The notes beneath the pieces were generated by a model. The model saw nothing but the letters and a program-made list of their open reading frames with translations, did not search any database and was not told the DNA's origin. Positions 9,785 through 61,042 of a stretch of 64,000 nt of DNA are shown piece by piece; position 1 is the first letter of the stretch; each line of letters starts with the position of its first letter. The translations under genes were made by a program, and so were the position numbers. Source of the stretch: Tetracentron sinense (taxonomy: Eukaryota > Streptophyta > Magnoliopsida > Trochodendrales > Trochodendraceae); the NCBI GenBank assembly GCA_015143295.1, contig CM026563.1, positions 4,278,001 to 4,342,000 on the forward strand. Reading direction: 5' to 3'.

Positions 9785-9956
9785 GAACCGATCGCTCGGT
9801 CAGAAGTAGCGATCGATCGGTAGCTATCGACCGATTCAAAATTTTGTATGGGGAAATTTTCCAGAGAGTGTGTTTTTGACCGATCGCACGGTCATAAACA
9901 CCGATCGATCGGTAGGCGACCGATCGCTCGGTCATAACTACCGATCGATCGGTCTT
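9785..9956 (+). repeat. CGATCG palindrome cluster upstream of LTR TATA (copy 1)
   Basis: At least four repeats of ACCGATCGATCGGT (perfect 14-bp palindrome at 9900-9913 and 9940-9953) and the near-palindrome GACCGATCGCTCGGTC lie about 65-230 bp before the TATA box at 10018. Confidence 0.9.
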
Positions 9957-10017
9957 TCGTGTTTTTGACAGAATTTTGTAAGAACTTTTAGGTCTTTTCG
10001 TTTCCAACTCTTAGGGC

Positions 10018-10025
10018 TATAAATA
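10018..10025 (+). promoter_or_regulatory. TATA box of solo LTR copy 1
   Basis: CTATAAATAGG is conserved at the corresponding place in all three family A LTRs (also minus strand at 20660-20667 and 30396-30403). It marks the LTR promoter and the U3/R boundary just downstream. Confidence 0.75.
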
Positions 10026-10874
10026 GGAGGTCTTACTCGAGATATTAAAATACTCTATCTATTTCTAACCTAATTTAGCAAAAAATGGAAGAAAACCTAG
10101 GGTTTTGAGAGAGGGGTTGCTTGGAGAAGAAGGAGATTGCTAGAAGATTTAGAGGAAAGCTTGGAGATTGTCCTCAAAGCTTCTCCAAATCATCTTGTGA
10201 GCGATTTGGATCCAATGGAAGGATCCCTAAGGTCGATAAACTCCCTAACTCAACTCTATTAATAAAGTTTGATGAATATTAGTTTAATATGAATGATAGA
10301 AATGATAATTTGACTTGTTTTCCCTAATTATGTATGGATTAAGCTTACTAGAGATGAAAATGGATTTATGTCATGGATGGATTGAACGGAGGAAGGGAAA
10401 TACTATGGAGGATTGGGATGTATGGATATGGAGTATGTTTGGGTTGTGTGGATGGATTATTGTGTGATGGAATGTTAAGAATGAGAAAGGGCAAAGTATC
10501 CATAATTAATGCACTCTACATGTTTGTTGAAATGTCTAAGAATGCTAAATATTAGTATGATGCTTTTGATTATGAAGAAATTAAGTTAAATGAATATTGT
10601 ATTGTTATGATAAATTATGCTCTATTTACTTGTATGGTGATCGGTATTCGGATAGGCCAAACCTTAAAGGAAAATCCTCCACGTTGGGAATTCTCTAACT
10701 AGGGAGATGTAACTTATCTGAGTTTCCTAGCGGAAGATTGAAATCTAAGAGATAACTCATTTGAATTCCAATCACGACACTCAAGCACACGTGCACTTGT
10801 AAGTATTCAAGTCTCATGAGTCCACTTGTCTCACAAGCATGCATGCATTGGATACGAATATGTCACGAATTATG

Positions 10875-10990
10875 CCATGAAAGAATGATCCCCCACTACG
10901 AACATCCACTCTACGCATTGTCGCATTCATGTTATGCTATGAAAGAATGATCCCCCACTACGAACATCCACTCTACGCGTTGTCGAACAC
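10875..10990 (+). repeat. 62-bp tandem duplication inside LTR copy 1
   Basis: ATGAAAGAATGATCCCCCAC and the 25 bases after it occur at 10877 and again at 10939 with almost no change. Confidence 0.85.
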
Positions 10991-12117
10991 TATGAATTAT
11001 GCGTTGCCGGGACAAAACACTATGATTATGCGTTGTCGGGATAAACACACTATGAATCATGCATGTATGAGTCTATGCATATGTTAAGTTAAGTTCATGA
11101 ATAAGAATTGTACAAGTACACGAGTCAAGATAATGTTATGACATGTTATATGCTATGCACTCTGATTATGCCTATTTTACGCGAAATTATTATGAGTAAA
11201 CTTAGATAAACTGAGTTATGATATTGTTATTGCTCATGCGATCTTATGTTGTTGTTAGTTTGTTTATCCACTGAGTATTCCAAACTCAGTCGACCTGTCA
11301 TTGTCTTCAGGTTTAGGAGAAGAGCCGTGGACCAAGGAGGTGTACGCCGAAGAAGAGGGAGAAGGTGAGCTTCCTGAGGGGGAGGCTAGGAATTTTGACA
11401 GTTATCCCTATTGAGTAGTTTTAGCATTTCTTTTTGGAAGAGAATGTTGTATTAGACTTTTGACTTCTAGTTGATGTTGTCTTAGTTATGTACTGGGTGG
11501 ATATTTTAGACTATTTTCGTTATGAGGAGCTATGGTGTGTGGATTATTATTGTATAGGATGGTTTGACTTTTTATGATCGGAATTTTAGTATCCTCATTT
11601 TTGGAGACTCGTGTAGTATGCCTTGTATGCATGGTTTTTAAGCAGGTTAAGTAATGTGACGATTCCAAAGTCCTATTTTAGCCTTGTGGGATTTTGGGGT
11701 CGTTAAAGAGGGTTTGGGCGGGTTAGGATGGGCCGAGCCGGGCTGGATCAGGCCCAGTACCCTTCGAGCCGGGCTTTTTTAACATGCTACTATTGAGTAG
11801 CTCTTGCTTGACACATCACATGATTTACTCTGGCCAACTGGAGTAAAATACTTTGGCCTAGCATCTAACACTAGGGATTGAATCTCATGCAATGTGAATG
11901 ATTATTGATATGGTAAATTACATTGACCTCCTTTGAGGTTCGGTGAAATTTCAAAGACCTCCCCTCTTGTTTATGAAATTATACTACCCTCCCTTGTTAG
12001 ACTACATATGATATCCTGTAACAATTTTGCCCCTATTTATTTACTTTGCTTTTGTTTGGTTTGAAAACTCGACCAAAGACATGTGAGATTCCCACAAGCG
12101 ATTACAAAGCCTCTAGT

Positions 12118-12144
12118 GCCTAATACCGAAATTCGGTATTAGGC
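12118..12144. repeat. Perfect hairpin with 13-bp arms
   Basis: Arm GCCTAATACCGAA, one central base, then the exact complement TTCGGTATTAGGC. There is no poly-T after it. Function unknown. Confidence 0.85.
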
Positions 12145-12169
12145 GACGCCTTCTCCTTTTAAATGACCA

Positions 12170-12640
12170 TGTTTTTCTCTTTTTAACATCCTTTAACTGT
12201 GGTAAAGTTTTACCCACCCTTAAGTTAAGTGATTTAACTTTGGTTTTAAGAAAAAATTAACACCCTTTAACTGTGGTTAAGATTCACTAACCCAAGGTGC
12301 TAATATATATATATATATTTTTTTTCTAAAAACCAAGGTTAAATGAGTTAAACCCTAAGGGTGGGTGAAACCTTACCACAATTAAAGGGTGTTAAAATGG
12401 GGAGAGACATTGGGTTAGTAAATCTTAACCATAGTTAAAGTGTGCTAAAAAATGTATTTATTTATTCTAAAAATTAAGGTTGAATAGCTTAATCCTAAGG
12501 GTGGGTGGAACTTAACCACGGTTAAAGGGTGTTAAAAGGGGGAGAGACATTGGGTTAGTGAATCTTAATCCCATGGGTGAAACTTAACCACAATTAAAGG
12601 ATCTTAAAAGGGAGAGATATGTGACAATTTGAAAGGGGAA
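12170..12640. repeat. Cluster of fold-back MITE family copies
   Basis: Four or more partly overlapping units of TTAACCATAGTTAAAGGGTGTTAAAA and its complement alternate with GGGAGAGACATTGGGTTAGT. The arrangement suggests repeated insertion of the family into itself, or local duplication. Confidence 0.6.
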
Positions 12641-13265: not shown

Positions 13266-13460
13266 TAATTTTATTGAAAGAGTATCTTAATAGCGCTGCA
13301 ACCACATGAAAAACTATTATCGATAAAAAATAAAGCATATAGAAAGAGACAACACATAATATAATAAAAGGGGAAAGACATTGGGAAGATTATTTTTTAT
13401 AAAAAGAGAAAGACTGTTTTTAAGGAGAGTTTTTAGTAAGATTTTCTTCAATCTTACGTT

Positions 13461-14640: not shown

Positions 14641-14649
14641 TTGGTGGGT

Positions 14650-17791: not shown

Positions 17792-20700
17792 GTGAACTCC
17801 TGATTTTCAATTCTGACTGCTAAATTGTTCCTTGTTTTTTGATTTTTGGAGATTGGCTTAGTGTTATTTAAATTGATTCTAGTGAAATGTAGATTTTTAT
17901 CGGGCCTTATTTTTCCTGCAATTTCCGTTATAATGTTGAGGTTCTGATTCACTCATATGATTTCGGTTATCCTAAACATATTCTGCTTCATTCTCCTGTT
18001 CCGCTATTCTAGTTTATCAAGAGCCGAATAGAATATTTTGATAATGAAAATCAGATTTTTGAGATTGATAATGATCATTCTTTTCTTTTTCTGTTTTTTT
18101 TGTATTTTTATTTTTGATGGTTAAATAATAACTTCATTAAATATAAGAGAAAAAGGGTATACAAAGATTCACAAAGATTGAACCGACAGGATGCTAAATA
18201 GAAGTGCTAAAGCATGGCAAGATAAACTACCAGAACTGCAACTAAAGCTGAAAAAAATAGGTAGGAAAATCTGAAACATCCCATCCATTTGCTTCACCCC
18301 TCAGCGATAACCAGTGGACCAACAAGTGACAAACCCTCTGAATAGCTTATACTGCTGACAAAGAAGTATCATTGAAAATTCGCCTGTTACGCTCTTAACT
18401 CTTTCCAGATAGACTATGTGATAGCCCTTGGGAGAATCATCCAAAAGTGATCCAAACGAGGGTCCCATGAGCCCGACTACCAACAAGATAAGAAGCTTTG
18501 GAAGGAACAAAAAAAAACTCAAGCAACTCCAAGATGAGTTAGAAAAGTAGTTCCAGATGATAATCGCAAAAGGGCAATGTAAGATCAAATGATCAACCGA
18601 TTCTTCCGTTGCAACACACAACACGCATTTGTATGGAAAATTCCAACATCAATTTTGAAGATGATCAACTGTCAAGATTTTATCCAAAAAAGTGATCCAA
18701 AGAAAAAATGACACCTTAGAGGGCACACTAGGATGCCACACAACTTTAAAAGGGAAAGGTATGTGAGTAGGGGGCAGAGCCAGGGGGGCCGCGGAGGGGG
18801 GGGGGGGGAAGGGCATTGTAACGACCCCAAAATCCTACAAGGCTAAAATAGGACTTTGAAATCGTCACATTTCCTTAACCTGCTTAAATCCATAACGTAC
18901 AAGGGGGGGGGGGGAAGGGCATTGTAACGACCCCAAAATCCTACAAGGCTAAAATAGGACTTTGAAATCATCACATTTCCTTAACCGGCTTAAATCCATA
19001 ACGTACAAGACATACTAATATGAGTCTCCAAAAATGAGGATAATAAAATTCTTCTGATATATATAAAACCAAGTCATCCTGTTCAGGTCTATACTCAACA
19101 TAACCATCCACAATAAACAAATAATCTAATACTCAATTATAAAGTAATCTAATGATCAACATCATCTAAAAGTCTATTACAATTCTTTTAACCAAACAAA
19201 ACATAAACTAATAGGGGTAACCATCAAAACCCCTGACACCCTCCTTTGAAGGTTCACCTTTTCCTCCTTCCTCGACGTATGCCTCCTCAATCCACGGCTC
19301 CGCCGTGTGCTCCTGCTCTAAACCTGCTAAGACAAAAGTCTGGTTGAGTACAAAAGTACTCGGTGTATATAAAATCCAACCAACAATAATAATATACCTG
19401 TACTTAGTTAGAACTATAACCAATATCATAATAACATAATCAAAGTGGGGAAAAATATGTGCTTATATATATATTATATCATCACCTTGACTCATGTACT
19501 TGTGAGAACCTTAGACTTAGAAGATAATATACTTATGAGATGCTTTTACTTATGAAACCACGTGCTTGTGAGATGCCTATGTTTATGCACTTGTTTAGAT
19601 CATACACCTAATTGATATGCCATTCTTGGAGGATACGGACCATGCCCATGCAATTATTTAATTGACATGCCGCTCTTGGAGGATACGGACCATGTCAGGT
19701 TTATTCAGAATGACAGGCATATGCAATGCTTATGCTTATGAATCTTGAGCAGCTTATTCAGAACATGCACTTATTGAGATCCCTCATTGGGCTTAGTCAG
19801 AATATCAGGCGTATGCAATGCTTGTACTTGTGGTCCACATGTGTGACTTATGAGACTCTTATCTTAACATACACGTGCGTTGTGCATAAGTGTTGTAATT
19901 AACATTCGAGTAGGTAATTGCCGATCTCCCACCATGGAAATTCCACTATGCTGTCCCATACCATATAGTTAGAGAATTCCTGGTTTGAAAGATTTTCCTC
20001 TGAGTTCTTACCTTCCCGAATATCAATTGCCATGCAAATAATTAAGCATAATCTTGACAAGCAATCACGTACATATATATCTTATCATGATTCTTAATAT
20101 AATTCATGGTCAATTCCTAACAATTTCATAGTAATATATTAGTATTTTTCCTCTCAAGCATTTTCACAAACACTTTGGGTATGTAGATTATGAATCCATT
20201 GCCCTTTCACATTTTCAACATTTCATCAAACTATAATTCATCCATACAATCCAAATACAATCCACATCCACACATTCATCCCATCCTCCATAGTATTTCC
20301 CATCCTTCATACATTCCATCTACATTATTAAACCACATTTCCATCCATAATAGCTTACTTCATACAAAAATGGTGAAAAACACATCTAATCTCTATTCTA
20401 TCATTTCTATCATATTAACATTCACAAAACATTATAATAGGATTGATTTGGATAGTATATCGACCTTAGGGATCCTTCCATTGGATCCAAATCGCTCTCA
20501 AGAAGTTTTGGGGAAGATCTCCAAGCTTTCCTTACAATATCCAAGCTATCTCATTTTTCTCCAAGAAATTTCTCCTTCAAAATCCTAGGTTTTCTCTCTT
20601 TTTTTGCCAAATTAGGTTAGAATGGGTTAAAATACTCTCAAATCTCGAAATAGGACCCCTATTTATAGTCCCAAGGGTTAAAAACCCCAAAATCCGCGTC

Positions 20701-23700
20701 TTTTAATAAACGGGGTCGTATCCTGATGATCGATCGTCAATATGGATGATCGATCGTCCAAATTCCCTAGGCTAAATCAATTTTCTGGGCTCCGGACGAT
20801 CGATCGTCAAAAACTTGATCAACGGTCCGAAAATCGTGTTTTGGTATTTTGATCATAACTTTTGACTCGCTCATTAGATTTTAACGATTCAACTTGCATT
20901 GGACTCGTCTCTCAAAGGGGAACAACTTTGGTGTTTTACAAAAATCCTAATTTTGAGTTTTTGAAGGTCTAAATTGACTCCAAAGCTGATTAGTCTGCAA
21001 AAACATCGCAAAACCTACTTTTGACGTAGTTTAGACTAAAAATATGGAAAAACATTAAACATCAACCTCGAAGAGGGTTCCAAAACCTTTCTAAAGGTTC
21101 AAGAATCACTCAATTCCGATAAACGGTGACAAAACTAGAGCTTTCTAAAGTTCAGGGTGTGTTAAGACTTCCCTCTCTTTTTAACTTTGATTAAGCCTAG
21201 CTCACTCCATACTAATTAGATATAAATATACACACATTAAAACATGATAAAGACTAAAATACTCTTAATACTTGCATAAAAGCATAAAAAACAGATTCGG
21301 GACTCTACAGGCATGACCCCCCAAAATTTTTGCAAGTTTGTCATGTGGTAGTAAGATGGGCCCCTCAATTTTTTTCAATTTTTTTTAGTATAGTTGGCCC
21401 CCCCAAAAATTTTTTGGCTTAAATAATATATAGTGGCCCCCGCAATCTTTTTACCGTATATATAATGGGGCCCTCAATGGAGTACGGTTATCCCTTGAGG
21501 TTGTACATGTCCCTATTGACACCCCTTAACTATGGTTAAAATTTATGCACTCTTAGGATTCACCTATTTATCCTTGGTTTGTAGAAAAAAATATTTAAAA
21601 TATTTTAACCTTAAGAGTTAGTGAATTTTAACTAGGGTTCGAAAAGAAATTTGATATATTTTTAAAAAACAATAATAGGTGGGTGAATCTTAACCCCAGT
21701 CAAAGGGTATTAATAGGGACACGTGGCGACCTCAAGGGCATTACTGAGAAAAAAATTCTCAAAATAAAAAACTTACCCCAAAAAACATTTCTCAGGGGCT
21801 ACGCCCCTGAACCCCCAAGTTCCATACCTTCAAATCAATTATTCTTTTATACATATATTTGGGCCCCCCAATGAGAAATTCCTGGCTTCGCCCCTATATA
21901 CGAGGGGTAAAACTCTGAGCCCGCAAGAAGGATCTAACAGTAGGGGTGATATCTAGTCAAGTAGTGGGGTGTTCGAGCTCGGTTCGCTAAGTTTTACTAT
22001 TGTTCAAACTCAGCTCGAGCTCAATTCAAACATAAGTACTACTGTTTGAACTCGGCTCCTGATCGGCTCGTGAAAACATAAACAAACTTGAGCGTAGAAT
22101 GCCTTCGAGGCTCGAGCTCAACAATTTTTCAACCTATTGATGTATAATAATTAATTAAATTAAAATTTTAATTTTAATTTTTTTTAAAAAAAATCCTTTT
22201 TAAAAATTTTATCAAGCCAAGCCGAATAAGAGTTGAGTCGAGTAGGGGAGTAGCCAACTCGTTTGGTCTTCCCTCTTTCTCAACACCTCTTTTATAGCCA
22301 AGAACTTTCACAACCTCCTTTTCTTTAACCGATGTCGGACTATTTAGTCCCACATCACACTTCACTACAACACACTTCACAAGAATCACAACTGTGGGTC
22401 ATGCGTTGGAGAATGCCATCAGGTCATCCGTTGATTCAATGTTCCATATTCTAATCTAGTGGGTCACACCCTTTAAAGGATCACAGCCCAAGATCATGTC
22501 CATAAGACGATCCTAACCATTCTATAAAGAGAGAAAGTTTGGATGGCTGGAACTAGAAACCTAAATCCAAAACAATGGTCGATTCAACATGGCTGCCAAA
22601 CAACAAAAGACAGTCAAAATAGACACATGGGTGTAGAGCTGATAAGACCCTACATCACCAACCATACGGATTCGGCATAGATATTTGGATACGACTTCAT
22701 AGAGGCTTGTGGTCACAACACACAACACACTCACACACTGTCACACACTTACACACACAACGCCTAAACCACCCCTATCTAACAGTAAACCGACCTTTGT
22801 TGTCCTTAGACCACATCGGATATCCCTAGAATTAAGCTTAGGCGTATCCGATTCAAGGCGAACTAACAATCTAATAAACGAACTCATTTCCCAATCCTGT
22901 AAAGGCCTCCCAAAACTAAGGGTCATACTACTAATCCACCCCTCAACTCGAACGAGGAAGCTGCTGACACGAGGTGATATGAAGATATCAAATACAAAGG
23001 ATTGAAATCCAGTTTGAATGTGACAGGGCCACACCACAAATCAAACCAGAACTTAACTTCCTCCCCATCCCCAAAGACAAATCTGGTATGACCATCAAAC
23101 TCTGACCTAATCATGAGAATAGCTCCCCATAGCCCAACCCCATGTGGCTTAAGTGACACTTTAGGAATCCATCTATTGCACTCATGACGCGCCACAATGA
23201 CCTTTCTCCAAAGGCTATTATGCTCCTCTCCGAATCTCTACAACCATTTACCTAACAATGCTTTATTCGCGACCTTAAGCGACCATAGATTAAGGCCACC
23301 ATGCTCCTTTGGTCGACAACTCAACCGTAAGAAATCCCGTTGTAACCTTTCTAATTTGGCTGCCACATATGATGGGATGGAGAGAAGAGACTAGAGAGGG
23401 ATAATACATTAGGAGACTACAAAGGGTGTTTTTTTAGAAGGGTCAACCTTCCCCCTTTCGAGAGAAAAATGAATTTCCAACCCTCAAGCCTCTTGATGAA
23501 TCTCTCTACCACAGGCTACCAAACTGATGTGGCCTTGAAGTGAGCCCCTAAAAGAAGACCCATATATTTCGTCAAGAGGGACCCGATCTTACAACCATGA
23601 CACAGAGCTAGCTCTGCTAAGTTTGGGACCCCACCCACCACGAATATCTCACTCTTGAGAAAATTATTTCTCAACCTGGACACCGCCTCGAAACATCTAA

Positions 23701-26700: not shown

Positions 26701-29700
26701 AACCCTTCTCGTGGCTAGCGAATGATTGTTCGAACTAACTCAGTTTCCAGAGTAAGTGGTTGAGGACGACTCACACGAAGACACCCTAGGCGGATTATAA
26801 TGGGATCCAACCCAAAAGGGTCATCACTCGAAAGGCCATTGAATCCACACTCAAGCGGTTTGGGAAAGTTATTGGGCCCATGCTTTCAAGTAATGGGTCC
26901 AGGTTGAACAAGTCATTTGGGTCCACTTTAGGTAGTGGGCTAAGGCTATTTTTGGATTGGTTAGAACTAGGGCTCATGGGGTTACAGGGCCCAAACAAAG
27001 CCGCTTGTGGGCCAAAGGGGAGATCTATGGGTTGTTTACCTTAATTGGAGGGAACGAGTCACCCTGCCAGTTGTTGCCCTTGATTCCACCCCCTCTGCCA
27101 CATCTGTACCCACTTGTATATTAGGTGGGTTGCCCTCTTTCACTGGTAAGGAAATTACCCTGGGGCGTCGCTTTCGCCTCTACCTGAACTGTTACCTCTT
27201 CCTCTTGACACAGAAGACTCTAGGAGGGGTAGGTTATGATTCTTCAACTACTGCTGCTACTATCTTCTGAGGCATCACGTTGTTCAACGATAGGCCCAGA
27301 GTAACCCTAGAGTCCCCTATGCTTAGGTGCCTTGATGGAGACCTCACAATCCACAAATGGAATGAGCTCATTCCAAGACTTGCAATGAGGTACGGGATTG
27401 GGATGGTGTACGACTCGTTCAAAATTTGAATTGCTTTCCTTTGTTGGATAATTGCACATCGGAATTTGAATGTCGCCGGAGTTGCCAACTGCATCAGTAT
27501 GAAGTACTTTCACAATTATCGTATAGAAGAAACCCCTATCCGGGATTCTGCTAACTCGAGGGATTCCAGCAAGACTGCACTCTCTAACGCGGATGCGAGC
27601 TACCCTAAGGTCTCAGCGCGATGAGGTACGGTAATCAATTTCCAAGAGCCCCTCACACGCATCCCCGATGCTTGGAAAAGTTTCAGATTTCAAGAGGTGG
27701 AGAGGGATACCGAGTAGACCCAGCCAAATAGATCATAGTTGAGCAACTTGAACCCCATTAAACGAGCCCCATCATTGTTTAATCAAGATGGATCCTCTGT
27801 TAGGTAGGGGCCATGGATCGTTAACAGAGAGGTCCTTGACCGTGGAATGTCGTTTGAATATAATTATGCCCATGGCAGTGTTGAAAGGGATGAGCAGACA
27901 TTGCTCGTCGAAAGGAAGAAGTCCATTCACTATTTTTTCCAGATTGAACCAACTTTCTAATGCGTCGGTGAATAAGCAAACTAGCGTTGTTTCCCACCAG
28001 CCTAGTAGTGGTGGGAGCTTTTTGGAGGGCGTTGTAGTTGGTTTGGGTCTTAGTTGGTGGTTGAACGTGTCTGACCTCCTAGTGACAGTGGAGGAGGTAA
28101 GGCGACGATTGCCCGCCTTGTTGAAAGCCGAGGGATGAGGTGGTAAAGCTTTGGTAGGAGAGAATAATTTCAGCATTTCAGAGACTCCCCTGGGAAGATA
28201 ACCCACCTACTTTTCCCCCCTTAAATTGGTTGATACAAGAGGGATATGAATTCCCATTTGGTATTCCTCTTTTTCTCTAAAACAAGGGCACTGATGGTGC
28301 CGGAAAAGCGATCAACCCGATAGCCATCATTCTTGGCCAAAACACAATCCGAGAAGAATTTTAACACCCACCAGAACGCCGTAATCTCTATCTATATTTC
28401 CACCGAGAAACCCCTCCCTCTCTTAATGATTCCGAGAGTTACATGAGAGTTTTCCCCCTCTTCAATGAAGTTGAAACTTTTCAACTCAATTTGAAAGATT
28501 CTGCCACGCATTCTTAGTGTCACCAATGTGATTCTCGCCCAAGCTCCCTTTGAAGATCTAACCCTTCAGGGCCTGGAAGCTAGGGATTTCAACAAGTAAA
28601 CCAACAGGTCGCCTCCTCATTTGGGTCCATCCATGTGTTGTAGAATAGACCTACGAGGAGAGAGACCTGCAAGAGCACAACCTTTTGAGTCGCATATCAA
28701 GATACCAGACCAAGGTGACCTGAATTGTTATGACCCCAAATCCTACCTTTACCAAAATAGGACCTTAGGTCGCCACATTTCTTAAACCTGCTTAAATCAA
28801 TGACATACAAGGCGTACAACACGAGTTTCCAAAAATGAGAATAACAAAATTCGATATATAAAACCAATCCATCCTGCTCAAGTCTATGCTCAACATAAAC
28901 AACCCACTATAAACAAATAGTCTAAAATTCAACTATAAAGGTAATCTGATGAGCAACACTATCTAAGAGTCTATTACAATTCTCTTAACCGAAACAAAAC
29001 ATTAATAACTAATAGGGGTAACTATCCCTGGCTCCCTCCTCGGAAGGCTCATCTTCTCCTCCTTCCTCGATGTAGGCCTCCTTAATCCACGGCTCACCTA
29101 CAAAGTCGGGCTCTACACCTACCAAGACAAAAGTCTGGCTGAGTACAAAAACACTCTGTGTATATAAAATCCAACCAACAACATAGTATCCCTGCACTTA
29201 GTTAGAATCATAACGAATAACATAATAACATAATCAGAGTGCAGAAGAACATGTACTCATATACATCATATCATCATCTTGACTCATGTACTTGTGAGAA
29301 CCTTAGACTTAGGAGACAACGTAAGACCATGTACTTGTGAGATGCTTATGCTTATGAGTCTTGAGCAGCTTATTCAGATCATGCACTTATTCAAATCCTT
29401 CATTAGGCTTATTCAGTCTATCAGCCGTATGCAATGCTTATGCTTATGAGTTTTTGAGCAGTTTATTCAGACATACACTTATTCAGATTCCTCATTGGGC
29501 TTATTCAATCTATCAAGCTAATGCAATGTTTATGCTTATGAGTCTTTGAGTAGCTTATTCAGATTCCTCATTGAGCTTATTCAGTCTATCAAGCGTATGC
29601 AATACTTATGCATGTGTTTCACGTGTGTGACTTGTGAGACTTTTATCTTAACATATAAGTGAGTTTGTGCATAAGTGTTGCAATTAACATTCGAATTGGT

Positions 29701-32700
29701 CAACGCTTAGATTTCGATCTCCTACCATAGAAACTCCACTATACTGTCCCATACCATATAGTTAAAGAATTCCCTGTTTGAAAGATTTTCTTCTAAGTAT
29801 TGGCTTACCCGAATGTCCATCACCATGCAAAATAATTAGACATAATTTAACAAACAATCACATATATATACCTTATCATGATTCTTAACATAATTCATAA
29901 TCAATTTCACAAACATTCTTAAGTTATTCATTTTCCATTACATTGGCTCATCTTCCATTTCTCATCAATCCCCAACCAAACAATCCATTCACATACATTC
30001 TCATCCTCCATTTTACTCATCCATAGTATTAATCATCACATAATAGTTCATAGAACCCCAATTCATATTCACAAAGCTATTCACATTATTAATTTACATA
30101 CTCTATTCTCCATTTCTCATAATATAACTATATTCATGCCAATAATTCAACATTTCTACCTTAATCAATCGTAAAGCATACATATAATCTTAATAGAGTT
30201 AAGTTGGATAGTATATCGACCTTAGGGACCGTTCCCTTCGATCCAAAATGCTCCTAGATGTTGATTTTCAAGTTTTTCTTGCAATCTCCTTCATCTCCAA
30301 GCAATTCATTCCTTAGAACCCTAGGTTTTTTTTCATCTCTTTGCCAAATTAGGTTTAGAAATATTAGAAACCTAAAACCCTCAAAATAGAATCTCTATTT
30401 ATAGCCTAGGGGTTTAAAACTCTGATTTTCGTAACTTTTTTAAAAACCTGAATCGCGATTTGCGATTGATCGTCATATTGGGCCATCAATTGTTGCGTCT
30501 GCTGCGATCGATTGTCGAAGAAACAGAAGCTTCGCAAATTTTTTGGTTCAGGACGATCGATCGTCACGTCAGTGCAATCGATTGTCGTACAAACAGGGGG
30601 CTTACCCAGATTTCAGGTTCGTGGCGATTGATCGTCGGGTCTCTTGTGATGGATCGTCGATTTTGATTTTCCACCATGATAACACTTAAACATTTAACCC
30701 ACACTACACCGCTTAGATATAATTAAATATGCATAAAAACATTCCCAAAGACTATTATTCCCATATTAATTGTATTAAGGGTATGAAAGAAGGTTCGGGT
30801 CTCTACATGAATACTGATCAGAAACTCACGGGCTACTCCCTTGACTGAACACTCACAGGAATACCATCGCTCTGTAAAACTTTGATATGAACACTCACCA
30901 GAAACTCGTGGACTACCCCTTGATAGTGGGTGTTCTGTTTATCTAACTAATGTTATCAAATATTTTCTCACTAATCCCATCGCCGTTTACTGGAGGCTTC
31001 AACTTGCAACAACTCACTCCTATGTGCTGGGCAACCTAATTAGCAATTGATTCCATTTAGGTTAATCAATAGTTACCTAACTCCCTAAGACACGTGCAAG
31101 TTACAAACTAAATAGGCTCTAGTCTCTAGGAAATGCTCATGATGGAATAAAATGGCAGAACACGAATCTTGTTGCAACCCCAAATAGTTGGGATAAAGGC
31201 ACTGATGAAGAGGAAGATTAGGTTATTGTTCGTAGTTTTGTAAAATATATAGCAAATTGTAAGCATGCTAAATGAACCAAAATAAAAATTAATTAACTAT
31301 GTATTTTACATCTTGTTCACTGTTCTGCTGCTCGTAACTGCTTAAGATCCTGTTTGTTATACTGACCTGATTTCCATGAAGCCTTGGTTGTCTTTCTGCT
31401 TTTATCTTGAATCATTAATCATGGCCAAAACCACTGACTTTTTCTTCTTTTTCTTCTGTTCAAATCTGCTCTCAGTCCTGTTATGTCGCTTTAAGGTCTG
31501 CAAAAATGGGGTACTTGTCTGTCTGTTTGGAATTGCTTTAGTTGCATCACTCTTTTGTCTTTGAAACTCTATCTTTATTTCATAATTAACCCAAAATTTT
31601 GATTAAGCCTGAGAAAATATTTGTTTTTTTTTTTTGGGACCTCAAATTTTGACAATGTTTCACCCATTTGAATTCAACAAAGCTTGTTAGCTCCTTATTC
31701 ATAGCTGTCATATGTATTGCTTTGTTCTCAACTGAACCTTTCCATATTTGATCCAAAATATTGGTTTATTTGAGGCTTTTCTGGCTCATGATTAAGTCTG
31801 TGGCTTCAGATAAAAATCAATAAACTTCTGATTACCCATGTCTGAATCATCGCCATATATTTCATCCATGGATGATATTTCGTATAGTTTTGTATTTGTA
31901 CTCTTGTCAAATTATGCCTTGGATCTCCTGGAAGTTATGATTTCTAATGTTATTAACAGGGTTTCTGATCCAGCTCAATGCTTTTGTTAACCTTCATTTA
32001 ATTTAATCTATTTGATATTCCATTGGTCAGATATGATGGTTTTCTCTATGTGGAAATCGTGGATAGAATCCAAAGTGGTAAACATGAGACATAATCAATG
32101 AGCGAGCCCCCATCATTTGCTTGGTTCATCACCTAGGAGTGATTCTACAAAAGATAACTTGATCATATGACAGTAACCATCAATATATCTCACTTTTGTA
32201 TGGTCATAAAAGATATGGTGATAAGTCCACAAAGATAGTTTATAGATTGGATATATGCAATATTTTACTTTGCTCGACTTGATGTATGAGATCTTCCTCG
32301 TGGAATCATTGAAGGGCCAGTCTCATCCTCCATTTTACCACATATACCAGTATATTGTGTGAAGATGTGTGCCTGTATTCTACTGATCAAAAAAAGAAAG
32401 TGTGCATGTAGTCTACCGATGGGTTCCTTAGACTTATTCATCAATTTGCATAATTTTGCTACGTTTTGCTATCATATGCAAGGTGGTCTTATTTAGAATA
32501 TTAAACTTTGATATCTTGCATAAAAATTTCAGAGGTACATGCAACTGGGAGTACATTTGGAACTTACTTCCGTGTTACAACATATGGAGAATCTCATGGA
32601 GGCGGTGTTGGCTGTATCATTGATGGATGTCCTCCTCGGCTTTCTCTCTCAGAAGCTGATATGCAACTAGAACTTGACAGAAGGTACTTGATATTTGAGG

Positions 32701-41700: not shown

Positions 41701-44700
41701 TGTCAGGTGGAAAGTCCACTACATATCCATTAGGACCAACCCGCTTCAAGATCTTATGTGGTCCAGCACTACGGGTGTGAATCAACATATATTTTATAAG
41801 TTTCATTATTGACTGCAATTTGTTTTTCGATCTCATCTTGTAAACCATGAATTTGTTGACTCACTTTGATGACTTATGGGAATGGGATTTAGTGCGTGCT
41901 GGATGTCACGCTTGGGTGAGAGCTCATCTGGTACATCTTTAGGGAAGACTTCTTGAGGACTACCGACACCACAGATGGTGATAACTGTGTTGCCTAGATA
42001 TTGACCCTAGAGGGGGGGTGATTAGGGTCTTAGCAAATTAAAAACTAATTTTTCCTTTATGTGCGGAATTAAAATATCACAGGGAATACAACTAAGTAGT
42101 TCTAAAATATATACAGTGAATAGAGTAAGGTAAAGAGTTATAGAGAACAAACACCAAGATGTTTTTCTCGAGGTTCGGCAACCTGCTTACGTCCCTGCCT
42201 TTTAGCTTCCAGTTTCAAGGATTCACCACAATTTTACTTGTACAAACTTCTTCCTGGGTGAAGCTCTAACCCCTTACAATCTCTCTTACAGGTCGATACC
42301 AAACATTTACAATCTCTCTTCCAAGTCGAGACTAAACCTTTACAATCTTTCTTCTAGGTTGAGATAGAACTTTTACTTGCAAGAGCACAACCCTCTCTTG
42401 ACTTTTTCGAAGTTACAACTTCAGTTGCAAGAATCTGCCGATTCTTGACTTTTCTTTACCAATGTAGATCTGGATTTATAATCCGAAATAAATCTCCTGA
42501 AATGAGTTAGATAAGAGTTAAATAACATTCTAATGAAATCTTTCAAAGAATGGAGTTGAATAGCTCAAATGAGATTTTTGGGGATTTCTAAAGTGTGATT
42601 GATGTGGAAATCAATGTCATTGATTGAGTAGATGATGAGAGTTAATGTATTGATCTGATATGTTATTTTGTTCATTTATGAACTCCTTTTATAGCTCTTC
42701 ATCTAATATGGCCGTTGGTGAAACATTAAATGCGAAAAAAGCTGTTGAAAACTAGTCGTTATAGCATTTTCATAGTATCCATGATTTCGTCGACGAAATT
42801 GGGTTCCCCAATTCATTTTGTCGGCGAGTTCAAAAACAGTGAAGACAGTAAGTTTACTGTCTCCATTTCATCGCCGAATTCAAGACTGCCCTGTGAATTC
42901 GTCGATGAAATCAGAGTAAAAACTTTGATTTCACTTTTGATCAAGACCTTAATGATGGGAATGGATTCCTAAGTTTGTTGACTATCCTTTAACATGATTT
43001 TTATGATTTCCTAGGGCCTTAGAATGATATTCAATAAAGTCTTAGGCTCCTATAATCAATCTAAGTATTTGAGCAGTTGACTAACCATACTTTGAGGACT
43101 TCTTACAGAAATCCTAGACACTCTCATTAGATAAAAATTTGAACTCTTATGGCTTCTTGAGAGTTGGTCTTCAACTTGATCTTGAATCTTTAGATTTGGT
43201 TTTGACTCTTAGATCATCTTTTCTTGTTTGGTGATTCGACTTGAACTTTGAGTATGATCTTCAATCTTCATTTTTCACTTGAGTTCAATTACTTGAGTTG
43301 AATATTATTTTTGATGACTTGGACTTGGTTGAATGACTTGCTTAAATCAATCCAATCGATTTTACTTAAATGATTTTCATTCTTTTCTCTCTCGAAAATG
43401 TGCTCATGATCTATATTTATCAAACACTCAGAAGAATCATAAGTACCACAATTGTCATTCCATTATTATGTTATTATCAAAATTATTAAAGGTAGCAAAG
43501 GTCTTGAGGCTAACAAGCTGCACAAATAACTTAGGGATTGGTGGAATTTTCACAAGGGACTCAAGAGATGATGGTAACTCCACAAGGGAATCAGGAGCTG
43601 ATGGAAGCTCCACAAGAGATTTTGGAAGTGGTGAAATCTCACCACTCATCTCACACCTCACATGAAGAGTGGTGTGTGCTACCACACCAAATCACAACCC
43701 AAAAACGGTCATGATTAAAACACATATGCGAAGGCATGTGTGAGCCCTTACCGCACTAAATCAAGACCAAATAAAATGGGTCTTTTATAGACCCCATCAT
43801 GGCAGCAAGGAACAGCCTTACTGACCTAAATCAAAAATTAAATTAAAAGGGGTCTTTAATAGACCCTATCATGGCAGCAAGGAGTACCCTTGCTGCCCCA
43901 AATCTAAAATTAAAATCAAAGGGGTTTTCAATTGACCCTGCCATGGCAGCAAGGAGTACCCTTGCTCCTCCAAATCTAAAATTAAAATCAAAGGGGTTTT
44001 CAATTAACCCCACCATGGTAGCAAAGAGCATCCTTGCTGCCCCAAATTTAAATTTAAATCAAAGGGGTCCTTAATAGACCCCATCATGGCAGCAATGAGC
44101 ACCTTTGCTGCCCCAAATGAAAATCAAAGTAAATTAGAGTCTTTAATAAACCGCATCTTGGTAGCAAAGAACACGCTTGTAGCCCCAAATCCAAATCAAA
44201 TTAAAGGGGTCATTAATAGACCCACCATGACTGCAATGAACACCTTTGCTGCTCCAAATAAAAATCAAAGTAAATAGCAAGGAATACCCTTACTGCCCCA
44301 AATTGAAATTAAAACAAAAGGGTCTTTAATAGACCCTCATCATGACAGAAAGGAGCACCCTTGTTGCCTCAAATTGAAATTAAATCAAATAAGTCATTAA
44401 CAGACCCCACTATGACAGTAAGGAGTATCCTTGCTGTCCCAAATCTAAAATTAAAATCAAAGACCCCACCATGGCAGCAATGAGCAACCTTGCTGTCTCA
44501 AATTTAAATTTAAATCAAAGGGGTCCTTAATAGACCCCATCATTACAGCAAAGAGCACCCTTGTTGCCCCCCAAATGAAAATCAAAGTAAATAGGGTCTT
44601 TAATAGACCCCATCATGGCATCAAGGAACACCTTTGCTGCCCTAAATCCAAATCAAAATAAAGAGGTTATTAATAGGCTCCACCATGGCAAAAAGGAATA

Positions 44701-47700
44701 CCCTTGCTGCCCCAAATGAAAATCAATGTAAATAGGGTCATTAATAAACCTCACCATGGCAGCAAAGAACACCCTTGCTGCCTCAAATTGAAATTAAAAT
44801 AAAAGGGTCTTTAATAGAGCCCATCTTGGCAGCAATGTGGACCCTTGCTGCCCCAAATTTAAATAAAATTAAAGAGGTCCTCACTAGACCCTATCATGAC
44901 AGCAAGGAGCACTCTTCCTGCCCCAAATCCAAATCAAATAAAAGGGGTCATTAGTAGACCCCATCTTGGCAGCAAGATGCACCCTTGTTGCCCCAAATTT
45001 AAATAAAGTTAAAGCGGTCTTCACTAGACCCCACCATATGCCCAAACCCAAATCAAATTAAAGGGATCATTAATCTTAACAGGAAGGAGCACCCTTCCTA
45101 CCCAAAATCCAAATCAAATGAAAGGAGTCATTAATAGACCCCGTATTAGCAGCAAGGTGCATCCTTGCTACCCCAGATCCAAATTAAATTGAGAAGGGTT
45201 GCTAGACAACCCCACTTTGGCAGCAAGGATGAAGCCTTGCTGCCTAAATCAAAGATGGCCAGAGGTCATCTTTCACTGCCGTTTGGCAGTTCGGTAGTAC
45301 CCACTACCACCTCTCCACCCACGATCCATAACAAGAGGGTGGGGAATAACTCCCCTCTCCCACTAAGAGGACATATGTCCTCTTCATAAAGAAAAAGACA
45401 GTTAGAGGAGGTGGTTATCAAACCACTCTCTCCTATAACTCCCACAATATAAAAGTGGGAGTTATTCTCAAACCAAAGGATCGAGAATCGGAGAAGAGAA
45501 ATCCCAAAAGAGAAGAACTCAAGCAAAAACTAGAGCTCTAAGGAATGGAAGCCGCAAGGTAGGCCTAAATGCCTACCCTCCTCTCTCCCTCTCTTTCCCT
45601 TTTACTTTGAAGGACCTCCATTGAGGCAATTGTAAAAACCTTAGTAGGGCATTAGGCACCCCCATTCAATGAATGAAAGCTACTCTATTCTCTCTCTTTC
45701 TTTCTTCTTCTTAATCAGAGGTAACCTTGTGTAATTAACGGCTTGGGTTTACTCAAGCCGGAAATGGAGTTCCCCCACATAAAATAATAAACTCCATTAA
45801 CGGAAGTTATTTGACACCGAAGTTCAAGTGTCTCACACCCAAATGAGATGCTTGAAATTTGGTCGTACAGATTCAAGAGCTGGTGAGAGCTCCACAAGGG
45901 ACTCAGGAGCTTGTGGTAGCTCCAGAAAAGACTCAGGAGTTGAAGGTAGCTCCACTGGGGACTCAGGAGCTGCTGGTGGAAGCTCCACAAAGGACTCGGG
46001 AGCTTGTGGTAGCTCCACAAGGGACTCAAGAGCTGATAGTAGCTCTATAGTGGGCTTAGGAGCCGGTGGTAGATCTATAAGGGACTCCTTGAGGCTGATG
46101 TTGTGAAGGGATTTAGAATTGCTCTCTTTATGACTTTAGCCCTTACTAATGTCCTTCCTAACAGTGGGAACTTTGGGTGGGAGAGGATTTAACTTTATAC
46201 TGTTGCCTTCATGGATAAATGAGCATGTATTCGATTCGATTTGCTGAATATTGTTACATACTTATCAAATAACCAAGGTCAACCCAAAATGATGTGGCCC
46301 ACCTCCATAGGCACAACATCACACCACAATGTGTCCTTATATGAAGCGAACTATATAGGGACAAGACACCTTTGGACGATTGGGATGGAAGATGTATCTA
46401 TCCATGCAACTCGATAGGGTTGAAGGTGGGCTATTGGCGTCAATCCTAGATGGGAGATAGTACTAGATGAAATTACATTCGTGCAACTCCTGCTATCTAT
46501 GATCACCTTGCAACTCTTTTCACCACACTTGACGTAAGTATGGAAGATAGAATTCCTATGCTAGTCATCATCTTCCTTGATTTGAGTTAGGGCACACCTA
46601 AGAACCATGACTCTAGAATTCTCACCGGCGCCCTTAGAATACTCACTAGATTCACCTATGACCTAGTTGAACTGTGCAAGGTTCATGTTTGGTTAGGTAC
46701 TAACTAGTGTCCTAAGGCTATATGTGATGCATGAGATGCTAATGAGCCTGAAACCTAAATGCAAGAGACAAATCTTTAGCTAACCTTAAGCTCTGATACC
46801 AAAGTTGATGCAGGACAATGCAAACTAACCTAGGATGATGTGTTTGTGAGATTGGAATTCAAATTTAAGCAATAATAATAAATATAAAATTATCTAAATT
46901 CCACAATCACCATAAAGAACTCCAAAAAGGAATTAGCAATGCCCTAGGTTAAATCATAGTTCCGCAATAATGAATATTCAAATCTGATTTGGGTGATCGT
47001 AGTGGAAGTGAGAACTTCCACTAGCTTAGGGATTTAAACCAATAATCAACGAGAATATTTTAGTCAATCAAGGATTTCAAGAAATTCAACTTAGGCTCAA
47101 CAATGGTTATAGGTTGAAACATGCATGTGAGGTCTGTTTTCAAACCCTATTGAATGAAATAATACAAACTAGTAGCAATTGTAAAATAGCTTTCAAAATC
47201 TAGGGTTAGGGCTATGGGATTGCGGTTTTTTTTGGGTTTGGGGATGTAGGAAGGTTGTAATAGGATGAACTAGGAGGGCTGGGGCAGCAATATTAGGGGC
47301 TGTAGGAGGTTGGACAGTCGAGGGGAAGGTGCTGGATTTTGTGCAACAGCTCGCTTGGTCAGGGTTGAGGAAAGTTGCGACAGGTGTGGCAGGGGCTGGT
47401 ATGGAGGCTAGGGCTTGTCCAGATCTGCTGGAACAGTAATAGGTGGTCCAGATCTGCTGGAACAACAATAGGGAATATGCTGTGAATAGTAACTTGTGAA
47501 TAGTACCCATGAATAGTACCAATGTGGGGTCTTCATGATGAATTTTATATGTGCATAAGGTCTTCAACACTCCAAATCAACCATCAAAAGCTCAAATCAA
47601 CCCCATGTACATGTCGTCCATCCACAAGGAAACATGTGTTAGGGGCTCTCCTCCCCCTCTACTCGTACACTCGCACACTAGATGCTCTGGTATCCGCATC

Positions 47701-50238: not shown

Positions 50239-50246
50239 ATGCCATA

Positions 50247-56815: not shown

Positions 56816-59800
56816 TTCGCAGAGAATCTGAAGGTCTTTGTTGACGAGTTTTCTTTATCTGTATTTCACAAAATTTTCTAATCTTTCAGTTAGGTCGAGA
56901 TACCTTGCATGCTTTCGGTATCTAGTCGATGCTTATTCAATCAAAGCTTCTCGTTCGCGAAACTTTAGATATACAGCTTTGAACCTCTCCTGTAAAGGAC
57001 TCGAATAATCGTTTCTCCCAGCTACTATAGCTTTCAGCTACGAATCCCTGATGCTTTCAGATTTCTATATTCAGTAGATTTTGCTTTTAAGTTATAATCT
57101 CCACTATTAAGTGTTGCAGATTTTGCTTCGAAATTTCGCTCATTCAGGAACTTTGTTGAAGATTTCGCTCCGAAACTTCGCTCATTCAAGAGTCCGGATT
57201 ACCGCGTATTTCAGCTTCCAATCAATGCTCATCCCTGCAAAATTTCTATCAGATTTTTCACCTTTGAAACTTGTGCCCTACTAAAACATTCCGACGGACT
57301 ACAACCCTAGGACAACTCTCAAGCTGTCGAACAGACCACTTACATGAAATCCTTCCACGGCTCCGCAATCTTCTCTCTATCAAGAAACTGAAGAAACGGA
57401 TCAACGTTTCTCTCAAGTCTCAACTAAACAAACTCCAGTTCATCTTCGAAGAAATCATTCTCTCTCAGACAAAAATCGACCAACTCATCTGTTTATCTTC
57501 GAGTCTCTCGTTTTCCTTTCAGCATAGCACGCCAAGACTAGAGCAAATGATTAAAGAAACAAAGGACGAGGGAGATGCAAAATACTAGCAAGCGTTTCAG
57601 AGCATGTCTGCTAGTTTCAAAAAACGAGATTTTCAGAGCTTGGAACGTTTCCGGAATCATTTATCCTCACCCATGACCTATCCATTTCATCGTATTCCTG
57701 ACCGCGGTACGGCTCTTAACCCTGGTTTACATACCCTCAAACACTGATCCGCTGCAAGATGCAGCCTGCAAAGCCCGATGCTAACATGCTATTGGATTAA
57801 GGTCAGGTTTGGGATTTTCGTTTTGGGGTTTAAATGTTTACCCTAGCCCTAATCCTAAAATATCTCTTCGGTCCTGCTTACGTTGCACTAAAAGTGTTAA
57901 AGACTTAAAGAGTTGTGTGTGCGGCTTTTTGCAGCTATCTCTTGTAGCGGATTGTTGTTGCATATTCTCAACTGTCACCGACGATTGCTCGGTCAATAAC
58001 CGGTCACGCCGTCCGTAACCCGACGGTTGAAAATCGAAATGCAAATTTTCTCGCGCCTTTGTCGTCTACGTGTGGGGTCCAGCGCCTCCTCGGTCGGTAA
58101 GGAATTGGAGGGCACTACTCAAGCCAGCCTTTTCCATTATGACGAAATTACCCTTCGTCATCTTGAAATTGTTGAGCCGGCCGGGCACATGTGTTCGTTG
58201 GCGCTTAACTCGTCGGTCGACTCGCTAATCACTCGACTAAAGCTTAATATTGAGTTGATTTTTATTGAATTATTAAAAAAAACATCTTATTGGGATTTAA
58301 TATTTTCTTAATTAGTGTAATAGCTCAATGGGATCCTTAGGTCAGACTTTGGTGCAGTGCATTATGGAATGATATTGGAAAATGATAAAATTGGGTAATT
58401 TGAGAGTTGGGGTAATTATTGTTTGAAGTGACTTTTCAAGTGAATTAACTAATTAAAATTGGTCGCCCGAATGTTTTTAAAATGATGGTTAAGCTTAGAT
58501 TGTTTTTTCTTCTTTTTGTTGAATTTAAATATCAATTTGGATATAAATATGTGTGTTTGATTACTAATTGGTACAATTGTTTCTACATAATCTAAAATTG
58601 ATTTTACAGATTTTAATTGACAAAAATATTCAAATGTCGGACTGAACGATATAATTTTTACAAAAATTAACCAAAGCAACATTTAATATCTTTTCAGCGA
58701 TTATATTGTTACAAGCTAAATGAATCGAAAATTCGAAACCTTATGATATTTAGCTCCTTTGAGACCGTTGAGGAGATATTTTCCTATACAAAATTATATA
58801 TTATGGCAGGAATATCCGAGGCATAAAATGTCGTTAACTTGTTGCTACGTGAGGTTATGTCATAGTTAGATGTGTCTCTTGGTGTGTGCCAAACTATACC
58901 TTGACCCATGCCTGTTGTGACATTACATTGTATTTTTATGTAAGATCAGAAAAGCCTAGTCTAATGGCTCCACGATGCCACAATCACGTTCGGCCAAATC
59001 ATTGTTGTAGCCTTTCAATTCTCTTATAGGCGTGCTACCCATGAGTTCAAGCATTTTGTACTTTTAGTCAAAAAAACTAATATCTGTTTAAGAAATGATA
59101 AATGTTGGTTTTTAGTTGAAGGAAGGAAATACCTCATAGTTGGGCTAGCACGGCTCGACTTATATTAATTTGTTATTTTTCGTTAATATTTTTTTAAAAC
59201 ATACCAATTAGACTATGATGGTCACCTTGGTGAGTTTAAACTTATAAGTGAAATTATATCTCACACATGCCTTTGTTGCTGCATTAGTTGATCCCTGGCG
59301 TCTAAGGAGAGTGAGAGTAGATAACGAGTTTATTAAAAAGAGCGTGGTGGTTGATATGCTCACTTACTTATTATAATGTGTCAACCCTAGTTGTGGTATA
59401 AGCAAAAAATACAATATTAATTCGCTAATTGGAACATAAATTAACTGTGGTTGTGCCCTAACCGTGACATGTAAGGAAAAACTGCATAATGCTCTTCCAA
59501 TTTCTTCCAACTCTTTCAACCTAGTATGTACATACCATGTGAGAACTAAATGCTCATATTGCTTCAGAATGTCTGCTATCACGCGCCACGCGATTTCAAG
59601 CTGACATGGGTAAATTGTCTTCTATCTTCAAGCAGCGCGTTAGCAGTTGAAATTTTCATTTTCTTTTCTTTTCTTCTGAATTTTCTTTTTAGTTTGTGTA
59701 AGCTTTACTTATTTTTGGCTTCTACGATTACTATACTTAGCTCGAACTCTATATCGTATAACGAGGTCTGCTCTCTCATAAGAGTTGTCTCACAGTAGAA

Positions 59801-59980
59801 GCTTTTCCTATTTGTTGGCAAGTAAGAGTTCAATCAATATTTACATCTTTTGAATTTAATCAATATTTACTCACCCTACCTAAACAAGTGTTTTCTTAGA
59901 TTGAAAAAATAAAATAAAATAAAAATAAAGAAGAAGATATTTCTATACGTGATGCTTTGTTACAACAGTATCAACCAACA
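56816..59980. other. Upstream of the phospholipase gene, no other gene seen
   Basis: It should hold the phospholipase promoter and 5' UTR. A TGTATATCTA on the minus strand near 56970 is a possible TATA box only. The frame at 57271-57588 has no recognisable motif, and the rest is AT-rich. Confidence 0.45.
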
Positions 59981-60996
59981 CACTACAAGAAAACTACCGA
60001 TTAGCGACGGAAAATTTCCGTCTCTAATAATCATTTTTCTGTCACTAAGAGTATTAGAGACGGAAATATTTTCCGTCTCTATTCTATGGCGGATGCTCTC
60101 ATGACTAAACGGATTTTTTTCGGTCTCTAATGATATTTTATTATTAGAGACAGAAATATTTCTATTTCTAAAAGTGAATTTTAAAAAATAAAAAATAGCC
60201 CTCTCTTCCCTCTCGTGAGAGAGAGTGAATAGAAGAGAGAGAAAATGGGACCCGACTTGACCATTGTCGGGTCTCAAAAAAACACAACCATACATGTTAG
60301 AAAAGATGATAAGAGCATAATAGAGAGAGAAAACGGCACCCCGACCACCAACGCTGCCACGATTCAGGACGATCTTGGGTCTGGCTTCCCTTTGCAATTC
60401 CACCCTCCTATTTAAATTGACATTTTTTCCGGCCAGTAGCTAGCAGATCCTTCCTATTCTTATTCTTTTCCATCCGATCTATTCAAATTTGAATTCGTAA
60501 ATCCATCAAATCGATGCTCTTAAACATGCAAAAGAAAATTCTTAGAAATGTAAAACAAAAAATTTAAATTTAAAAAACACTCTGTTGATCATCTTCATGA
60601 ACTGATTGCCACTCAAAACAAGAATCAGAAATTTAATAAATGAGAGAAGAAAATAGTTTCATTGAGAAGAGAAAGATTACCTTGATTCGAGACAGATAAA
60701 GGGAGAGAAGTCCTTTGTTACTATTGGGTTTATTGTGTCGGTTGCATCCTCCTCTCTGGGAAGGTTTTTTTTTTTTTTTTACGAGGCGTGGCTGTTACTG
60801 GGGCTCTCATTCTCGTCCGCATAAGCCCCCCTCTCCTTGATCTTGATGGCCGGTGTAAGGGATAAAATTCGTAAAAAGGAGTAAAAAGAAGGGGTAAAAT
60901 AGGAATTTCTCCCTCTAGCAAATTCTAACAATTTAGCCGACATAAGCCCACTTGGGCTATGTGCTGGCTCACTTGAGTGTTGTCTGACAGGTGACC

Positions 60997-61042
60997 TCAT
61001 CATGACTACACAAGTCATGATGACTCCAAATGCCTATAAATA
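60997..61042 (+). promoter_or_regulatory. Hairpin and TATA box of the nested LTR
   Basis: TCATCATGACT (60997-61007), five bases, then the exact complement AGTCATGATGA (61013-61023), and 12 bp later TATAAATA (61035-61042). Confidence 0.82.

Follow-up and report, generated by a model that had tools for sequence, protein, structure and literature searches.

Which function, if any, do the palindromes near the TATA boxes of long terminal repeats (LTRs) in a Tetracentron sinense chromosome serve? The window, C13:4278001-4342000 of the 1.161-Gb assembly (64,000 nucleotides in full), contains five LTR types, and a preliminary description had placed palindromes beside the TATA box in all of them. Each palindrome quoted there is present at the coordinate given for it. 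In three types, namely family A, an element in an intron (intron 2) and an LTR near 42 kb, each palindrome belongs to an array of three to seven imperfect, CpG-rich, TCGA-centred palindromes, an arrangement that the description had not mentioned. With somewhat better than even confidence, the sequence suggests that these arrays serve LTR retrotransposon promoters as cis-regulatory modules, to which DNA-binding proteins of the host, probably dimeric, most likely bind. By analogy, they correspond to the repeated motif (RM) described from the LTRs of Sireviruses. In the proposed module, CpG-rich sites with dyad symmetry would be arrayed in U3, ahead of TATA. Host proteins would bind the dyad sites, probably as dimers, and would activate transcription. 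Short units would be duplicated in tandem as the arrays grow and turn over, and each LTR lineage has a motif of its own.

TCGA-centred arrays upstream of TATA

The arrays of the three LTR types lie 58-361 bp upstream of TATA. Motifs were counted with at most four mismatches, and overlapping shifted registers were dropped by eye.

9787..9953, plus strand: array of family A copy 1, six in-register ACCGATCGATCGGT motifs (two perfect, four with 1-2 mismatches), 65-231 bp upstream of TATA
10018..10025, plus strand: TATA box TATAAATA of copy 1, conserved across the three family A copies
20725..20808, minus strand: array of family A copy 2, three motifs GAyGATCGATCGTC, 58-141 bp upstream of TATAAATA at 20667(-)
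30461..30658, minus strand: array of family A copy 3, six motifs (one perfect GACGATCGATCGTC, the rest with 2-4 mismatches), 58-255 bp upstream of TATAAATA at 30403(-)
33005..33249, plus strand: intron-2 array, seven CTCGCTCGAGCGAG motifs (one perfect, at 33236) within a tandem repeat of 91 bp, 117-361 bp upstream of 33366
42785..42910, minus strand: 42-kb array, four TTTCGTCGACGAAA motifs (one perfect, the rest with 2-4 mismatches), 92-217 bp upstream of TATAAAAG at 42693(-)

The palindromes claimed near TATA in all three family A copies are borne out, with motifs 58-255 bp upstream of TATAAATA. Copy 1 carries perfect ACCGATCGATCGGT at 9900 and 9940, with a tandem repeat called at 9878-9954, and GACGATCGATCGTC is found at 20795 in copy 2 and 30552 in copy 3. 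The 42-kb palindrome ATTTCGTCGACGAAAT at 42784 is likewise upstream of the minus-strand TATA, as described. In the intron-2 element, CTCGCTCGAGCGAG does precede 33366, but the supposed TATA box there (33366-33373) reads CATAAATA and is better termed TATA-like. Roughly 650-980 bp downstream of it, at 34019-34348, 67-bp tandem repeats each contain the interrupted palindrome CCGAGAGGATTCATCCTCTCGG.

Palindromes were defined by an arm of 7, at most one mismatch and at least 4 G+C, and were compared with 60 local dinucleotide shuffles. The window contains 15 TCGA-centred palindromes against 2.7 ± 1.6 in the shuffles (maximum 7). Twelve of these fall inside the arrays, and TCGA-centred clustering reaches four per 250 bp, where the shuffle maximum is two. 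Palindromes of any sequence number 98 against 63.1 ± 9.0 (maximum 90). When all palindromes are counted, copy 1, copy 2 and intron 2 have arrays that stand above their shuffles (0, 4 and 1 of 500 as high), and the arrays of copy 3 (4 hits; 200 of 500 as high) and the 42-kb LTR (3 hits; 119 of 500 as high) do not. In TCGA-centred palindromes, two each, the latter two arrays do stand above the shuffles (12 and 5 of 500 as high, respectively).

A generic link between palindromes and TATA was rejected, with 40 of the 98 within 300 bp upstream of a TATAWAW sequence versus 35.1 ± 5.9 by rotation; 36% of the window already lies that close to some TATAWAW. As generic palindromes are not enriched near TATA, proximity to a TATA alone is weak evidence. 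What carries weight is the class of motif, the comparison within families and the conservation of the TATA box.

Across the whole assembly, exact 14-mers were counted against the reversed pattern, which is also a palindrome of equal composition. ACCGATCGATCGGT occurs 30,033 times (control 3), GACGATCGATCGTC 1,444 times (control 1), CTCGCTCGAGCGAG 529 times (control 1) and TTTCGTCGACGAAA 163 times (control 3). A first look with the TATA leaders gave 2,257 candidates for copy 1, 2,940 for copy 2 and 1,548 for the 42-kb LTR, of which 40 each were scored. Family A LTR pairs occur about 7.3 kb apart in the genome, with internal regions between them.

Two sets of related loci were compared, 30 for copy 2 (family A2) and 30 for the 42-kb LTR, each including the window's own copy; some loci are LTR pairs or segmental copies, so that the loci of both sets are not independent. 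The claim that the place of the palindromes is kept stands: TCGA palindromes are nearly confined to the 300 bp before TATA (-300..-1), with 69 of 70 in the A2 loci and 29 of 34 in the 42-kb loci (bins shown). In the A2 loci, sites recur upstream of TATA at distances of 155, 134, 84 and 64 bp. A TCGA palindrome with at most two mismatches is present in 29 of the 30, the exception being L007. The motif sites of the 42-kb LTR also recur among its relatives, where an RM-like palindrome (at most one mismatch) is present in 25 of 30 loci, mostly 99 and 211 bp upstream, and is absent from five. Among five random 10-kb genome stretches, a sample too small for a genome-wide test, one has the 42-kb-family motif 210 bp upstream of a TATA.

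The 42-kb family (L035-L064) additionally contains the inverted repeats AATCAGAG...CTCTGATT and AGACAGT...ACTGTCTT about 227 and 160 bp upstream of TATA, which alternate with the repeated motifs.

A second motif at the same address

The preliminary description had held that the sequence of the palindrome changes in family A and its place is kept. Within that family the claim is weak, since the 10-bp core CGATCGATCG of the alignable site is identical in all three copies and only two outer pairs vary. It fares better across the relatives of the intron-2 promoter, which has 21 other scored matches in the genome (70-95% over 38-151 bases), 14 of them taken for motif inspection. Three carry CTCGAG-type palindromes (L075, the degenerate L081, and L082), nine carry GGAAATGNCGGTA-N7-TACCGNCATTTCC, which is of the CGGTA-N7-TACCG type (L074, L076, L077, L078, L079, L080, L083, L085 and L086), and two (L084 and L087) have neither. 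Where a TATA was found (L074, L076, L077, L079 and L083), roughly 130-280 bp separate this second type from the TATA downstream of it, which places the motif inside the stretch that the array occupies in intron 2. Inverted repeats in 11 intron-2-related U3s number 33 against 8.3 in 100 shuffles (maximum 19); taken singly, L076, L078, L079, L081 and L083 show no significant excess.

The half-sites of the second type are separated by N7 in 17 of 18 instances and by N6 in one, with spacers of 1-12 allowed. CGGTA-N7-TACCG occurs 13,235 times in the whole assembly (control 740), against 1,505 for N1-6 together (control 4,703) and 1,431 for N8-13 together (control 5,036), which makes the N7 count 54 times the mean of the twelve other spacings. 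The 64-kb window itself contains no exact CGGTA-N7-TACCG. The dyad symmetry and constant half-site spacing are those expected of a dimeric transcription-factor site, and paired protein contacts would produce such a combination of a rigid spacer with varied letters.

It is conceivable, though doubtful, that unrelated LTR lineages have each placed a dyad-operator array at the same address upstream of TATA and exchange one operator for another (CTCGCTCGAGCGAG versus CGGTA-N7-TACCG) without a change of address or symmetry. In that case retrotransposons would switch their driving host factor, and tens of thousands of high-quality operators, counting the 30,033 exact ACCGATCGATCGGT, would be scattered genome-wide as ready-made sites. 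In a tree of the intron-2 relatives (at most 165 bases), the CTCGAG-type copies do not form one clade; its support is weak (0.197-1.0), and therefore no claim is made on the number of motif swaps.

An unlikely alternative holds that the arrays have no function and represent a hypervariable U3 stretch. Its short palindromic units would be duplicated when replication slips or switches template, and the stretch would spread as the elements amplify. Such an origin would suit arrays that are partly tandem repeats (periods of 91, 40 and 21 bp), and a length-variable 5′ CpG island is described for monocot Del LTRs in PMC4029996. It does not sit well with the TATA-relative place kept in two families, with different motifs sharing one stretch in related promoters, or with the strict 7-base spacer. 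The inter-motif distances of three families (19-21, 31, 40, 50, 71, 92 and 111) also come close to multiples of 10.15 bp (R 0.72). This phase is only a lead, because the distances are not independent, and the intron-2 distance of 28 is off phase.

Several observations count against bound regulatory modules. Motif columns in the 30 A2 loci are overall no more conserved than the spacers (0.902 versus 0.916), which would also fit a stretch without function; outside CpG alone, the motif is ahead of the spacers (0.956 versus 0.928). Palindromes without a TCGA centre also peak directly after TATA, with 28 and 26 hits in bin 0..99, so that palindromes are held by the region and not by U3 alone. The copies are related by descent, and their numbers and fixed spacer may therefore reflect inheritance and not selection. 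The motifs were matched to no transcription factor.

Arm compensation, hairpins and CpG sites

Structure, not sequence, had been proposed as the object of selection. On that reading a cruciform or RNA folding would matter and the arms would be kept complementary, which the two arms of the palindromes should reveal. Among 182 pairs in five window arrays, 140 are unchanged, 39 are changed on one side, two are compensated and one is broken on both sides. Pairing in the A2 family (30 loci) is at the shuffled level, with 706 of 841 cells paired (83.9%) versus 700.6 ± 5.3 (83.3%; 171 of 1000 as high) and 11 double changes versus 10.0 expected. The same is true for the 20 units of the 44-kb array (83.5% versus 83.7% shuffled). 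An apparent excess in the 42-kb family (943 of 1113 versus 916.1 ± 6.5; 0 of 1000 as high) was rejected, as it is due to rows L055 and L064, which are misaligned at the site 227 bp upstream of TATA; without them, 898 of 1046 cells are paired versus 891.4 ± 5.7 (151 of 1000 as high).

Some figures do lean towards selected structure. The second motif type has 157 of 208 cells paired versus 147.7 ± 4.0 (32 of 2000 as high; 16 of the 18 instances used), but its changed-pair cells number 12 against 8.4 (174 of 2000 as high). Two of the four RM sites of the 42-kb family are matched by 10 and 15 of 500 shuffles, and A2 site 84 by 31 of 1000. Robust arm compensation is absent in the tested sets, which favours dimeric-protein sites over selected hairpins. 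Independent variation of the arms, which the preliminary description had named as a refuting outcome, is thus what the sets show. As mutations after insertion are neutral in dead copies, this result counters a present structural constraint there and not a past one in active elements.

Two lone hairpins that touch TATA also speak for a structural role.

45435..45465, plus strand: 11-bp inverted repeat with TATAAAAG (45448) inside its 9-base loop
60997..61023, plus strand: hairpin TCATCATGACT-ACACA-AGTCATGATGA with 11-bp arms, ending 12 bp before TATAAATA at 61035

Both had been described correctly, the former as a TATA in the loop of an inverted repeat in the LTR at 43.7-45.8 kb (the 44-kb LTR), the latter as a hairpin preceding the TATA of an LTR nested in a CACTA element. 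A scan for perfect 11-bp-arm inverted repeats (loop at most 12, arm with at least 4 G+C) returned 16 rows at seven places in the window versus an average of 0.1 for 20 second-order Markov sequences; five of the seven places are not at any LTR TATA box. The two hairpins are single and differently built, and they are not claimed as part of the array explanation. Palindromes exist by the TATA in all five LTR types, as first proposed, but they do not form one class, and palindromes in general are not enriched there. Taken together, the evidence makes selection for structure very improbable.

The 44-kb LTR has a further repeat that the description had passed over, 20 units of a ~70-bp tandem repeat (about 43.77-45.25 kb, ~1.5 kb) with the inverted repeat GGCAGCAAGG-AGCAC-CCTTGCTGCC in each unit. 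A perfect 20-bp palindrome at 45365-45384 lies between these units and the TATA-loop inverted repeat.

The arrays could also act via CpG methylation or small RNAs, either as a silencing switch or as a target of host RNA interference. They are indeed CpG-enriched (observed/expected 1.23-2.00 versus 0.39-0.70 elsewhere in the elements), and excess small RNAs on maize Sirevirus palindrome clusters are reported in PMC10760457, with reference to Bousios 2016. The CpG columns of the A2 motifs, however, decay (identity 0.828 versus 0.956 in non-CpG columns), and recognition by the host would leave the retention of the arrays by the elements unexplained. Such a role is accordingly considered rather improbable. 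Arrays at a fixed address, a spacer of 7 and the lack of arm compensation are best fitted by dimeric DNA-binding proteins, and among the three options of the preliminary description (cruciform-prone feature, dimeric-factor site and methylation tuning) the dimeric-factor site appears best supported.

If the arrays are dimeric operators, the site would name a host factor, and the genome would supply tens of thousands of natural variants of it. A feature published as Sirevirus-specific would extend to other LTR families, operator swapping as a change of host driver would become testable, and LTR promoters could be recognized cheaply.

Known elements and layout of the window

The LTR-like units of the window are listed below. 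No partner LTRs are seen within it, and the units therefore look like solo LTRs.

9288..11707, plus strand: family A copy 1, solo-like LTR, TGTAGAGACCCG...GGGGTCGTTAAA, delimited by similarity to copies 2 and 3
18923..21309, minus strand: family A copy 2, solo-like LTR with the exact target-site duplication ATGCC
28726..30807, minus strand: family A copy 3, solo-like LTR with the exact target-site duplication ATTCA
41988..43515, minus strand: 42-kb LTR, TGTT...AACA, solo-like, flanks CAGCT / CAGTT (4/5)
42006..42026, minus strand: CCTAATCACCCCCCCTCTAGG, polyC-rich, resembling the Sirevirus integrase signal, ending 18 bases before the end of the 42-kb LTR
43623..45869, plus strand: 44-kb LTR, solo-like, flanks GATTT / GATTC (4/5)
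60854..62106, plus strand: LTR-like insertion in the CACTA-like element, exact target-site duplication GCCGG, the best from a scan for TG...CA pairs

The flanking 5-mers of copy 1 (TAGGG / GAGGG) match at four of five positions, and its terminal bases are AAA, not ACA. The LTR ends of the intron-2 element were not fixed by inspection. The 42-kb LTR has no adjoining internal region, and beyond its end CAGTTATC is a putative target-site duplication. The letters of CCTAATCACCCCCCCTCTAGG presumably match the Sirevirus integrase signal, and its position agrees with the rule in the publication cited below. The four palindromic sites of the 42-kb LTR are clustered upstream of TATA, which lies at about base 821 of 1528, near mid-LTR as in Sirevirus. 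Most published elements have more copies of the motif than these four. With its signal position, mid-LTR TATA and RM cluster, this LTR looks like a Sirevirus-like element by sequence.

RMs form palindrome arrays in 13 of the studied Sireviruses and were called Sirevirus-specific within Ty1/copia (Bousios 2010, PMC2829016). According to the same source, they mostly have a CGG-CCG core, with at least eight copies per element and 3-14 copies in the 3′ LTR; TATA follows the RM CpG island after 37 bp on average, and box I of Tnt1 is symmetric. The polyC-rich integrase signal lies about 21 bp from the LTR 3′ end in 17 of 21 published Sireviruses (PMC2829016). The Sirevirus junction reads CA/ATTGG plus the primer-binding site TATCAGAGC, with multiple polypurine tracts.

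The window arrays share with these RMs a short, CpG-rich palindrome in several U3 copies upstream of TATA, with a motif that differs per element (PMC2829016). The published RMs of Vitis (CGGTCGACCG) and Tnd-1 (ACAATCGATTGT) are TCGA-centred like the window arrays, and that of Inga (AGCGGTASTACCGCT) resembles the CGGTA-N7-TACCG type (PMC2829016). In contrast to the RMs, the perfect 14-mers here have no CGG-CCG core and there are 3-7 copies per LTR (PMC2829016). The 42-kb motif TTTCGTCGACGAAA also lacks this core, as does the published Tnd-1 RM (PMC2829016). No Sirevirus-type polyC run is found in the last 60 bases of the three family A copies, which is not decisive, as the signal is present in only 17 of the 21. 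In maize Sirevirus, clusters of palindromic motifs with the repeat consensus CACCGGACNNNGTCCGGTG lie in the LTR promoter (Bousios 2016, via PMC10760457); this motif differs from those found here, and it was studied together with small RNAs and methylation.

In most eudicot groups, the LTRs of Del (Tekay; Ty3/gypsy) measure 2.1-3.7 kb, and their att sites are of the TG...CA kind (PMC4029996). Family A, known from its LTRs alone, resembles Del in LTR length and perhaps in the kind of att site. It differs in that eudicot Del LTRs have no CpG island, and "palindrom" does not occur in the main text of the paper (PMC4029996). The commonest U3 att of Del is TGTAACACCC, and its U5 type A has GGG at -8 to -10 (PMC4029996). 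The family A end TGTAGAGACC agrees with this U3 att at bases 3, 9 and 10 and differs at base 6; in copy 2, GGG lies at -9 to -11. Tandemly repeated cis-elements in U3, also upstream of TATA, and symmetric boxes such as BI/BII of Tnt1 have another sequence, and stress-response data exist for Tnt1 (PMC3601003, PMC2829016).

In a limited search of the open-licence literature, no report of palindrome arrays of this type outside Sireviruses was found. One of the four exact 14-mers occurs in 136 papers, and the 20 listed are human/mouse work, with the hits taken as primer or short hairpin RNA text; no paper combines three of six terms. The LTR-end strings occur in 14 papers, with no title about LTRs among the ten listed. 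The LTR-end, Sirevirus-signal and motif-pair strings have 0 hits in viral and prokaryote contigs. As far as the sequence goes, the array palindromes are real, and a feature described for one retrotransposon group appears to be wider in this plant.

Other features of the window lie around these LTRs. An exon at ~32.5-32.7 kb resembles, by eye, chorismate synthase. At 40033-40054 there is a perfect 22-bp palindrome, GGAGAGTTTTCGAAAACTCTCC; the second copy of the surrounding repeat is without that stretch. A retroelement remnant next to the 42-kb LTR, at 41411-41860 (-), contains an SH3_Tf2-1 domain fragment (E 4.5e-9), and an open frame of 449 codons at 55508-56854 (-) contains a patatin-like phospholipase domain (E 2.5e-21). 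The CACTA-like ends at 60000-60081 and 62280-62660 contain repeated GAGACGGAAATATTTCCGTCTC palindromes, which are DNA-transposon subterminal repeats and form another palindrome array.

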